A stretch of DNA of 33,339 nucleotides from a virus. Both the position numbers and the translations under genes were made by a program. Positions 6,144-9,798 of this stretch are shown here, in pieces (within the stretch, counting starts at the first letter, position 1; every line of letters begins with the position of its first letter). The notes under the pieces were generated by a model, which was not told where the DNA came from, did no database searches, and saw nothing but the letters and a program-made list of their open reading frames with translations. The stretch spans positions 1-33,339 of IMG/VR virus record IMGVR_UViG_3300028146_000027; one strand, written 5' to 3'.

Positions 6144-6713
6144 ATGCCGCTCGTGAACGGCCGGTACGCGCCGAAGAACCCGAACTGGCTGCTCGCCGGC
6201 CAGCCCACCGGTGTGTACCGCGAGAACTTCCCGCGCAACCAGATCAACACCGACCTCGCGGCCCTGACCACGCAGATCATGTCCGCCGTGGCGATCCCGC
6301 TGCAGGCCGGCGACGTCGTCACCAACCTGACGTTCAAGAGCGGTGCGACGGCCGCGGGTACGCCGACGAACTGGTGGTTCGCCCTGTACGACACCAGCGC
6401 GACGCCGGTGCTGCTGGGGCAGACCGCCGACCAGCTGACGGCAGCGTGGGCGGCCAACACCCGCATCACGCTGGTACTGGCGACCGCGGTCAACATCTCG
6501 ACGTCCGGCGTCTACTACGCGGCCGTCATGGTCAAGGCCACCACGGTCCCGACCCTCATCGGCTTCACGAGCTTCGCGGGCGCGTCCGGCGGCGTGTTCA
6601 CCGCGGACAAGGTGCTGTCCAACACGTCCGGCTCGTCGCTCACGACGACCGCCCCTGCGACCATCGCCACCCCGACGACGGTCGCGACCGTCCCGTACGT
6701 GGCGGTGAGCTGA
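6144..6713 (+). CDS. Putative structural protein, beta-rich
   Basis: A 189-residue protein with alternating hydrophobic and Thr/Ser/Val residues, as in a beta sandwich (VAIPLQAGDVVTNLTFKSG, WWFALYDTSATPVLLG, SGVYYAAVMVKATTVPTL). It has no signal peptide or membrane segment. The C-terminus is Thr/Ala/Val rich. This looks like a virion surface or decoration domain, but I recognise no named family. The ATG lies 1 base after the previous stop, and its own stop overlaps the next ATG (TGATG). Production along with the capsid supports a structural role. Confidence 0.65.
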   Translation: MPLVNGRYAPKNPNWLLAGQPTGVYRENFPRNQINTDLAALTTQIMSAVAIPLQAGDVVTNLTFKSGATAAGTPTNWWFALYDTSATPVLLGQTADQLTAAWAANTRITLVLATAVNISTSGVYYAAVMVKATTVPTLIGFTSFAGASGGVFTADKVLSNTSGSSLTTTAPATIATPTTVATVPYVAVS

Positions 6714-6998: not shown

Positions 6999-7511
6999 AT
7001 GGGACGCTTCTCCGCTGCGGTCGAGTCGCAGGCCGCCCAGGCCGCCGGCACGCCCGTCACCACCACGTTCAACGGCTACTTCGCTGCGGTCGTCGCAGGC
7101 GCCTCGGCGAACTTCAAGCTTCGCCGCGTCATCATCGGCGTGCGCGCCGGCGCTTCGGTGCCGACGAGCCAGCAGATGACGGTCGCCATCTACCGCCAGA
7201 CCGTCAGGGTCGTGGGTACCGGCTTCTCCACGGTCACCGGGCAGAACCTCGACAACCGCGGCGCCGCCACTGCCGTCACGGGCGTCGACATCACCACGGC
7301 GACCACCGCAGGCACAACCGGCCCGACGATCGGCGCCAACGCCATGCGGAAGATCTCCTTCAACACGCAGTCGGCGTTCGACGTGCCGTTCGAGCTCCTC
7401 GAGGAGTTCTTCTGCGATCAAGGCACCGCGAACGGCATCGCATTCGTCAACATCGGCAACGCGCTGCCCGCCTCGCACCTCTTCACACTCGATCTGGAGT
7501 GGGAGGAGTAG
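6999..7511 (+). CDS. Putative structural protein, beta-rich
   Basis: A 170-residue protein rich in Thr, Val, Ala and Gly, with beta-strand patterning (FNGYFAAVVAGASANFKLRRVIIGVRAG, QMTVAIYRQTVRVVGTG, ASHLFTLDLEWEE). It has the look of a single jelly-roll or sandwich domain that assembles on virions, similar in style to the 169-residue protein encoded at 15667-16176. A family could not be named. It starts 1 base after the preceding stop and abuts the next gene directly. Confidence 0.65.
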   Translation: MGRFSAAVESQAAQAAGTPVTTTFNGYFAAVVAGASANFKLRRVIIGVRAGASVPTSQQMTVAIYRQTVRVVGTGFSTVTGQNLDNRGAATAVTGVDITTATTAGTTGPTIGANAMRKISFNTQSAFDVPFELLEEFFCDQGTANGIAFVNIGNALPASHLFTLDLEWEE

Positions 7512-7811
7512 ATGGGCTTCGGCCCGCCGCCGACCTCGCCGTACATCTACGAGGCCCGCGACTACCAGGGCAACACGATCATCGCGACGTTCCCGTACGA
7601 CGACACCACCAAGGCCATCAACGGAAACCTCACGGTCCACCGTGATGCGGCCTGCGTCTACGTCAAGGTAATCATCGGCGACCCGCTCTCGCCGATCGCG
7701 ATCCTGCCCGTGCCAGCGGGCGATCACACAATCACCGTGGCGCAACTCGCTGGGGTCGGTGTGACATCGATCGACACGGTCATCAACACGCAGATCACCG
7801 CCAGCCCGTAG
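7512..7811 (+). CDS. Hypothetical small beta-rich protein
   Basis: A 99-residue protein whose ATG follows the previous stop with no gap. It begins with a Gly/Pro-rich stretch (MGFGPPPTSPYIYEARDYQG), then strands (NTIIATFPYDD, CVYVKVIIGDPL, IAILPVPAGDHTITVAQLAG). No family was recognised and there are no membrane segments. Its place between two probable virion proteins suggests a structural role, but that is only context. Confidence 0.6.
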   Translation: MGFGPPPTSPYIYEARDYQGNTIIATFPYDDTTKAINGNLTVHRDAACVYVKVIIGDPLSPIAILPVPAGDHTITVAQLAGVGVTSIDTVINTQITASP

Positions 7812-7830: not shown

Positions 7831-9798
7831 GTGGCTATTGCCGTTGACGGGAGTAGCCCGGCCGTCGCCGCCGGATCCGGCGCCACCCTCAGCACCGCTG
7901 CTTTCACGCCACCGAACAGCTCGGTCATCTGGGCCTTCGCTCAGGCCGACGCCAACAACGGATCCGCCGACGAGGCGCTGTCCTTCTCGGACAGTTCCTC
8001 CGGCACCTGGTCGACGCCGATCCAGGACAACGCACGCGGCGGCGCCGTCGTGGCCGCCGCCTACCGGCTGTGCCCGACGTCGATCGCGAACCTGACCGTC
8101 ACCCTCACCGACAACAAGGGGTCGGTGGCCAAGCGGCTGTTCGTCCGCGTGTTCACCGGCACCGACCAGGCCAACCCGCAAGGTGCCACGGCGACCGCCG
8201 GAACGGCCGCCATCTCCTACACATCGACGGTCCCCAACTCGTGGGGCTGGTCGGTCTACCTCGGCTCGAACGCCACCGTGACCGCAGGCACGGCGACGAC
8301 ATTGCAGGACGAGACCGGTGGCTTCGACTCCGGTGACGCCGTCGCGACCTTCAGCGCCACTTCGACGACCGCGACCCCAGGCACCACGGTCACGCTCACC
8401 GAGGTCGGCGGCACCGCCGTTCACCACGTGGCAGTCGAGATCGTCCCTCCGTCCAGCGCGCCGGCTCTTCCGCCTGCGTTGCAGCGGCGGCGGACCGGCT
8501 ATCCACGGGCCAGCCGCGGCCGCACAGCCGTGCCGGTCCGGGCGCAGGTTAATCCACCGCTTCCGACGATCGAGGCCGTTCAGCCGCGGCGGGTCCGGGG
8601 GATGCTCGGACGCCGTGGTCATCAGCCTCAGGTCGTACTGCCGCAGGTCAACCCGCCGCTGCCGATCACCGTCGCCGTCCAGCCGCGGCGGCTGCGCGGG
8701 CTGCTGCTGCGCCGGGGTCGCGCCGTCGTCCCGACCACCACCCAGGCCGCAGCGGCGGCACCCGCCTTCCCGGCGCCGGTCCTCGCCGTGCGACGGATCC
8801 GCGGCCTACTGGCGCGCCGCGGGCGGGCGCTTCTCTTCCCGGCTCCTGACGTGTCCCTGCCGGGCGTGACCGCAGTCCGGCGGCTCCGTGGTGCGACAGT
8901 CCGCCGTGGACGTCCCACGCTCGTCGTGGGCCCGCAGCTGAACCCGCCGTACCCGACCGCCGAGATCGCGGCACCCCGACGTCTGCGCGGCCTGCTGCTG
9001 CGCCGCGGCCGGAACCCCGTACCGACCATCACGCAGGTGTCGACGACACCGCCCGCTTTCCCATTCGGGGTGCTCGCCCAGGCGCGCCGTCTCCGCGGCG
9101 CCCCCGCACGCCGGGGCCGCCTGACTGTCGTCGTGCAGCCCCAGGTGAACCCGCCGATCCCGATCGCCGAGGCGGTCCAGCCTCGACGTGTCCGTGGGCT
9201 CCTCGCCCGCAGGGGCCGATTCGCTCTCCCGGTGCAGCTGCAGCAGACGTTCGCGAACCCCGCCTGGGTACCGCCGTGGCGGCGGAACTGGACGATCCCA
9301 CAGCCGCTGCGCCGGCCCGGCAAGGTGTGGCAGCCGCCATGGGTCGGTGCGGCTCCGGCACCCGCCAGGCCAGTCGGTCCGGCTCGCCGGTCGGTCCGGC
9401 TCGCCGCCGTTCGACGTGGGCGGACAGCCCAACCGATCGGCCAGGTGCCATTCGTTCCCCCGGCGCCGCGCCGGGGCCGACTCGTCCTGCCGGGCCGCCG
9501 CACTCGGCAACTCGTGCCGCTCGCGGCTGCTGCACTGCCAGTCGTATCGCCGAAGCCCGTCCGGGTCCGGCCGCTCGCCGTCCGGCGGGCCCGGGCCGCG
9601 CAGCTGCGCCTCATCGGTGCTGCTGCGGCGCCGCGCACCGGACGGCTCGCCAGCACGGTCGTCACAGCCGGCAGCTCCTCCGGAGCCCGGCTGCCCGGCA
9701 TGTCCTCGACGTCGAGGGCCTCCGGCAACTCATCCATCACCAGCACGCCCGGCATGTCCTCGGGCACGATCACAGCGGGGATGGTGAGCGGCACGTGA
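7831..9798 (+). CDS. Large putative virion protein with Arg-rich tandem repeats
   Basis: A 655-residue protein of three parts. Residues 1 to about 208 are a Thr/Ser/Ala-rich beta domain ending HHVAVEIVPP. Residues about 210-600 are extremely arginine- and proline-rich, with seven clear copies of RR-[LVI]-RG-xxx-RRG-[RH] near residues 253, 286, 321, 350, 383, 419 and 452, often preceded by NPPxP, and weaker copies to about 600. Residues about 615-655 are Ser/Gly/Met-rich with no charge clusters. GTG 7831 has a GGAGGG site upstream, and the stop overlaps the next GTG by 4 bases. I know of no named function. Binding to DNA, capsid lumen or anionic cell wall polymers are all possible; none is shown. 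Confidence 0.7.
   Translation: MAIAVDGSSPAVAAGSGATLSTAAFTPPNSSVIWAFAQADANNGSADEALSFSDSSSGTWSTPIQDNARGGAVVAAAYRLCPTSIANLTVTLTDNKGSVAKRLFVRVFTGTDQANPQGATATAGTAAISYTSTVPNSWGWSVYLGSNATVTAGTATTLQDETGGFDSGDAVATFSATSTTATPGTTVTLTEVGGTAVHHVAVEIVPPSSAPALPPALQRRRTGYPRASRGRTAVPVRAQVNPPLPTIEAVQPRRVRGMLGRRGHQPQVVLPQVNPPLPITVAVQPRRLRGLLLRRGRAVVPTTTQAAAAAPAFPAPVLAVRRIRGLLARRGRALLFPAPDVSLPGVTAVRRLRGATVRRGRPTLVVGPQLNPPYPTAEIAAPRRLRGLLLRRGRNPVPTITQVSTTPPAFPFGVLAQARRLRGAPARRGRLTVVVQPQVNPPIPIAEAVQPRRVRGLLARRGRFALPVQLQQTFANPAWVPPWRRNWTIPQPLRRPGKVWQPPWVGAAPAPARPVGPARRSVRLAAVRRGRTAQPIGQVPFVPPAPRRGRLVLPGRRTRQLVPLAAAALPVVSPKPVRVRPLAVRRARAAQLRLIGAAAAPRTGRLASTVVTAGSSSGARLPGMSSTSRASGNSSITSTPGMSSGTITAGMVSGT
8578..9228 (+). 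repeat. Arg-rich protein repeat, seven units
   Basis: In-frame repeat inside the 7831-9798 gene. The core reads VQPRRVRGMLGRRG in unit 1, VQPRRLRGLLLRRGR in unit 2 and AAPRRLRGLLLRRGR in unit 5. Successive core arginines are 33, 35, 29, 33, 36 and 33 residues apart. The linkers often contain QVNPPLP or a variant. The units differ at the codon level, so this looks like an old, selected repeat and not a recent slippage product. Confidence 0.85.

Follow-up and report, generated by a model that had tools for sequence, protein, structure and literature searches.

On sequence grounds, the Arg/Pro tandem repeat described here is a real family that occurs in ~20 other uncultured phages, beside one partner gene, and that is apparently undescribed. 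It was followed up in a virus whose 33-kb IMG/VR record, referred to here as the window, is the whole stretch of DNA analyzed. The chances seem to us about even that its product is an exterior virion decoration protein or adhesin with a polycationic arm that binds anionic surface polymers; its incorporation into the virion, exterior location, ligand, and benefit are what we infer.

RESULTS

An earlier note on this DNA had reported seven copies of RR[LVI]RGxxxRRG[RH], spaced 29 to 36 residues apart and following a beta domain, in a 655-residue protein. All of this was confirmed (Table 1): the exact units start at amino acids (aa) 253, 286, 321, 350, 383, 419, and 452, with spacings of 33, 35, 29, 33, 36, and 33 residues. 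When the residues of the tract were shuffled 20,000 times, no exact copy arose (versus 7 observed), and at the DNA level the pattern matched 7 times versus 0.04 expected from dinucleotide shuffles. The extent given in that note, 8578 to 9228, held for the exact copies and left out two degenerate ones; directly upstream of these, aa 479 to 508 (PPWRRNW...RRPGKVWQPPWVG) resemble the RRGRxxEPPWPQ units of two other contigs, L409 and L410. The reading frame is backed by the in-frame GC pattern, by purifying selection in L409/L410 (see below), and by in-frame homologous arrays in other contigs.

Table 1. Positions of the repeat gene, its parts, and its neighbors in the window
Feature	Position	Strand	Remarks
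Beta-rich accessory protein, upstream	6144..6713	+	Conserved in L002, L003, L020, L021, L407
Linked jelly-roll gene, cassette marker	6999..7511	+	Homologues in 33 viral contigs
99-aa protein between jelly-roll gene and repeat gene	7512..7811	+	No family match
Arg/Pro tandem-repeat protein	7831..9798	+	655 aa; GTG start; GGAGG ~10 nt upstream
Beta-sandwich/jelly-roll-like N-terminal domain	7831..8451	+	aa 1-207; family common to L438, L437, L415, L416
Seven exact RR[LVI]RGxxxRRG[RH] units with Pro-rich linkers	8587..9219	+	Full form RRG[RKH]-x7-Q-[VLF]-N-P-P
Degenerate units	9385..9600	+	aa 519 and 578
C-terminal tail, Ser/Gly/Thr-rich	9601..9795	+	Short repeats LPGMSSTS...TPGMSSG; relatives' ends comparable
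Head-tail adaptor with extra N-terminal Ig-like segment	9795..10661	+	Downstream edge of slot

The tract from aa 208 to 590 is 18% Arg and 16% Pro, has almost no acidic residues, and carries a net charge of +68; the beta domain before it (aa 1 to 207) is Ser/Thr/Ala-rich, with a net charge of -8. In charge and hydropathy, the array falls on the Uversky boundary for intrinsic disorder (0.474, versus 0.477). Its Arg:Lys ratio is 75:2, versus 278:104 in the other genes. DNA identity between units is about 60 to 81%; because the units are so far from identical and their synonymous sites are heavily diverged, the copies are old. The model of the beta domain (pLDDT 64, pTM 0.66) matched a mixture of jelly-roll, channel, and carbohydrate-binding-module folds (best Z, 7.4), and no recognized glycan-binding domain was found in the protein.

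Profiles from Pfam, PHROGs, and NCBIfam gave nothing above threshold over the window protein, a PDB sequence search gave no match, and we found no description of such an array in the literature searched. The 50,697 phage records searched contained no match to the array. Searches of those records by tblastn with the whole protein, the beta domain, a synthetic repeat, and the arrays of L407 and L441 returned nothing, although the BLAST low-complexity filter blinds such searches to repeats; the nonrepetitive jelly-roll gene was also without a match there. A scan for close relatives among viral contigs, for which the complete protein was the query, was likewise empty, as were samples of genomes of the phylum (0/198 and 0/296), which are weak evidence since they included no positive control. 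As a measure of chance, the motif mis-spaced by one base gave 76 single matches. Among the matches listed, scans with the correctly spaced motif and with triple RRGR yielded mostly out-of-frame chance hits, the exception being L402, and a scan for RRG-x7-QxNPP returned 9 stretches, with real arrays only in the contigs of L428, L441, and L438.

The earlier note had placed the gene in a head gene region, and PHROGs matches agree: genes for terminase, portal, protease, and major capsid protein (MCP) lie upstream, and downstream there are a head-tail adaptor gene, immediately next, and a tail terminator gene. Portal homologues occur in Streptomyces, Micromonospora, and Pseudonocardiales assemblies, so the host of the window virus is probably an actinobacterium. 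The slot carries an optional, exchangeable gene, because the nearest portal relative (L002, 73%) lacks the repeat gene and its two predecessors and because other beta-domain/tandem-repeat proteins occupy the slot in L003/L153 and L021. In L409 and L410 the repeat gene has the same slot as in the window, between the MCP and head-tail adaptor genes.

Repeat proteins of other types (AGTVTAAGSLAKLAG-type, LGIASETDTALPIGRAKAR-type, and SAALSAPSTMTA-type) were seen in L003 (16569-17154, with L153), L021 (12862-13755), L426, and L440 (6570-8432), either in the slot or after a jelly-roll homologue; the one in L440 follows an Arg/Pro array within one protein. The Ig-like segment of the window adaptor is absent in L002, and similar fusions are present in L021 and L003/L153. 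Downstream of the adaptor in an array-bearing phage (L407, 10791-11204, reverse complement; L409, 10577-10990) is encoded an extremely basic, Arg/Lys/His-rich protein of 137 aa with RRKG repeats, which may be a separate factor that binds DNA or surfaces.

The triple-RRGR scan led, among the matches listed, to L402, and a scan with RRGRxxEPPWPQ led to the same contig and to L405/L406. Between their MCP and adaptor genes, these contigs encode a homologue of the jelly-roll gene and then an Arg/Pro repeat protein of 641 to 732 residues. When that jelly-roll gene was used as the query, an Arg/Pro array protein was found downstream of its homologue in 21 of the 25 informative contigs, a set that omits duplicates of one virus and contigs with short downstream sequence (L424, which ends early, was not counted); L426, L430, L433, and L434 have the homologue and no downstream array. 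The five contigs obtained from the repeat pattern alone (L402, L405/L406, L428, L438, and L441) were all recovered in the jelly-roll gene search as well.

A profile search of the repeat had been proposed in the earlier note, and a profile built from the window units only did match other viral contigs among 26,608 ORFs, with E = 4e-40 for L441 and E = 9e-14 for L428; among the next matches were cassette genes of L415, L437, L431, L438, and L405 (E 0.004 to 0.024), interspersed with one or two chance ORFs. The L441 array, with about eleven units of the form QPRR[LV]RG[ML]RVRRG[RK]xxEVVPPQLNPPYPF, is strikingly close to that of the window. Across 83 units from 13 proteins, the consensus is R-R-[VLR]-R-x4-R-R-G-[RK]-x3-P-[VP]-[PW]-[PA]-Q. 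The window has both defining traits of the Arg/Pro-array cassette family, namely, R[RP]-x6-RRG[RKH] units with Pro-rich linkers and an upstream jelly-roll homologue. The earlier statement that no described family has this design thus stands within the scope of Pfam, PHROGs, NCBIfam, the PDB, and the literature searched; even so, the window is not alone in having the design, which recurs in ~20 uncultured phage contigs.

The number of units per array varies widely, with about 2 to 17 counted. The position of the cassette also shifts: in L428 it lies between the portal and MCP genes, in L415 and L412 it precedes terminase, and in L440 (a 160-kb contig) it is downstream of a helicase gene. Cassette sites mostly adjoin head or packaging genes, and given the terminase, portal-MCP, and helicase neighbors, the "head" context is not universal. 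In L428 (1615-3435 and 1898-2998), the beta domain and the array are in different reading frames, so this gene may be frameshifted, broken, or read through a programmed shift.

The L409/L410 orthologues have a dN of 0.24 and a dS of 0.70 (dN/dS, about 0.34), indicating purifying selection, and their alignment keeps 85/95 Arg columns, 114/131 Pro columns, and 242/403 columns of other residues. As far as it could be tested, therefore, the Arg motif is conserved and its codons are constrained, the opposite of the unconserved motif and neutral codons that the earlier note would have counted against itself. Among the window units, the cores have a dN of 0.22 and a dS of 1.16 and the linkers a dN of 0.67 and a dS of 0.79, a contrast that is supportive only, since the cores were picked by their motif and the comparison is biased. 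The idea of a repeated functional unit is supported by these results, with an Arg core that is conserved in relatives and more constrained in amino acid sequence than the linkers.

The same data bear on the possibility that the array is a passive spacer, an extended GC-rich linker of Arg and Pro that serves through its length and owes most of its Arg to base composition. The repeats found in the slot in other phages are less basic, so the chemistry of Arg may be dispensable; the linkers are under weak constraint; and the array is missing from the two lowest-GC contigs (L430 and L433), so its makeup may owe something to GC bias. We nevertheless consider a passive role quite unlikely, because the Arg core is conserved above the rest, because the Arg:Lys ratio far exceeds that of other genes in L441 (a 63% GC contig) as well as in the window, and because the window, L441, L428, and L438 all keep to one register, RRG[RKH]-x7-Q-[VLF]-N-P-P.

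The beta domain of the window belongs to one profile family whose members are fused to arrays in L438, L437, and L415; in L416 the member has a gene to itself, just ahead of the array gene. The array protein of L413 contains a LamG domain (Laminin_G_3, E 7e-9), and that of L415 (7424-10954, 1,176 aa) has an embedded Spherulin4 domain (PF12138, E 2e-30). To judge from their sequences, these fusions suggest work outside the particle, on glycans. Among the roles raised in the earlier note, they favor adhesion to anionic surface polymers over compaction of packaged DNA. An array that neutralizes or organizes packaged DNA, or that is ejected with it, would suit the charge of the tract and the location of the gene among head genes. 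We find such an internal role very unlikely, given the lectin-like and Spherulin4 domains fused to relatives' arrays, the absence of R-arms from motor-packaging phages as a group (PMC7096446), and the optional nature of the cassette.

The product of the linked gene was modeled as a single jelly roll (AlphaFold2; pLDDT 89, pTM 0.86), with middling PDB matches that include KHP40 (7dou, Z 7.4), the GP4 capsid (8h89, Z 7.0), the HFTV1 turret (8qpg, Z 6.9), and the Pam1 capsid (7eel, Z 6.4). Phage cement and turret proteins are thus among the matches, although every Z is below 8 and the likeness may be one of common arrangement only. A cement-like partner would suit a protein that laces the capsid, its arm running along the exterior so that spaced Arg clusters dock at repeated acidic sites of the shell and the beta domain is displayed. 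The regular spacing of the units, the cassettes beside MCP genes, the MCP net charge of -8, and the precedent of PRD1 P30, which is Pro-rich and mostly disordered (PMC7602432), are consistent with lacing. It is still an unlikely explanation in our judgment, as the number of units ranges so widely, their spacing differs even inside a single protein, and the morphogenesis modules among which the cassette moves are unrelated.

The C termini of many array proteins consist of short repeats in which either Gly, Ser, or Thr is abundant or Trp is; Trp-containing repeats (for example, WETGEPISRW, DTWTARTEQPGWDARP, and DSWLFGYTADNWQL) form a tail type common to the array proteins of L412, L414, L415, L418, L429, and L441. 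The C-terminal short repeats may be trimerizing or anchoring elements.

DISCUSSION

The reading that we prefer is that the product would be a modular accessory protein of the virion surface, either a head decoration or a fiber-like adhesin. Its two ends, a beta-sandwich at the N terminus and a tail of short repeats at the C terminus, would be folded or would serve as anchors, and the middle would form a long, extended, Pro-rich arm on which the Arg clusters (RR-x6-RRGR, about every 33 residues, on the order of 10 nm if extended) would provide repeated cationic contacts. The most likely ligands of the arm would be anionic host-surface polymers (teichoic or teichuronic acids or an acidic capsule, for example). 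This binding would be weak and multivalent, and it would help to keep the particle on the cell until the tail engages its receptor.

We also considered a role outside the virion, in which a cationic Pro/Arg-rich agent would be secreted, or would work at the lysis stage, and affect the host, as the composition of the array has a general resemblance to that of cationic peptides. The tight linkage to the jelly-roll and morphogenesis genes and the long multidomain architecture argue against it, no signal peptide was evident by inspection, and we regard it as highly improbable.

More speculatively, and with less confidence than we place in surface adhesion as such, the arrays may be phage surface modules of a new class. 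Each would be a polycationic "ladder" of Arg clusters, stiffened by Pro, whose adhesion to anionic wall polymers is multivalent and needs no lectin; phages would exchange it as a cassette in which a jelly roll is the base and the glycan-active heads can be swapped. If the preferred reading is right, some uncultured phages would hold cells with arms that are built of repeats and act through charge, as well as with folded lectins; phages of high-GC Gram-positive hosts are apparently among them. The jelly-roll gene is a marker that finds the cassette in metagenomes, and virion proteomics and binding assays would have a clear target in the cassette.

The array shares with the R-arms of capsid proteins an Arg-rich, positively charged, flexible character. 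R-arms, however, are usually terminal arms of coat proteins and are untypical of motor-packaging phages, whereas the array is long, tandem, and internal to a separate, optional accessory protein, and we do not class it as an R-arm. PRD1 P30, mostly disordered and capsid associated, is like the array in being Pro-rich and extended and unlike it in being a tape-measure and stability protein of the capsid. We know of no Arg-core repeat or appended beta domain in P30. The Ig-like, LamG, and other glycan-binding domains of tailed phages (as in the Douge MCP and tail-tube Ig-like domains) are likewise displayed beta-sandwich modules with presumed weak carbohydrate affinity, and L413 couples its array to such a domain, LamG; in the window, by contrast, the main element is a polycationic repeat arm and not a folded lectin. 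Surface Ig-like domains of Douge label the mycobacterial surface (PMC13033339).

The window protein showed no sequence similarity to the decoration proteins T4 Hoc, T5 pb10, SPP1 gp12, and phi29 gp8.5 or to PRD1 P30. To our knowledge, none of these four decoration proteins is built on a long Arg/Pro tandem array. They do resemble the window gene in being accessory genes of a structural cluster with beta-sandwich or fibrous modules, and for them, too, weak surface binding has been proposed, with binding enhanced through carbohydrates (PMC7602432). Two traits of decoration proteins, location in the structural cluster and absence from a close relative (L002), are found in the window gene.
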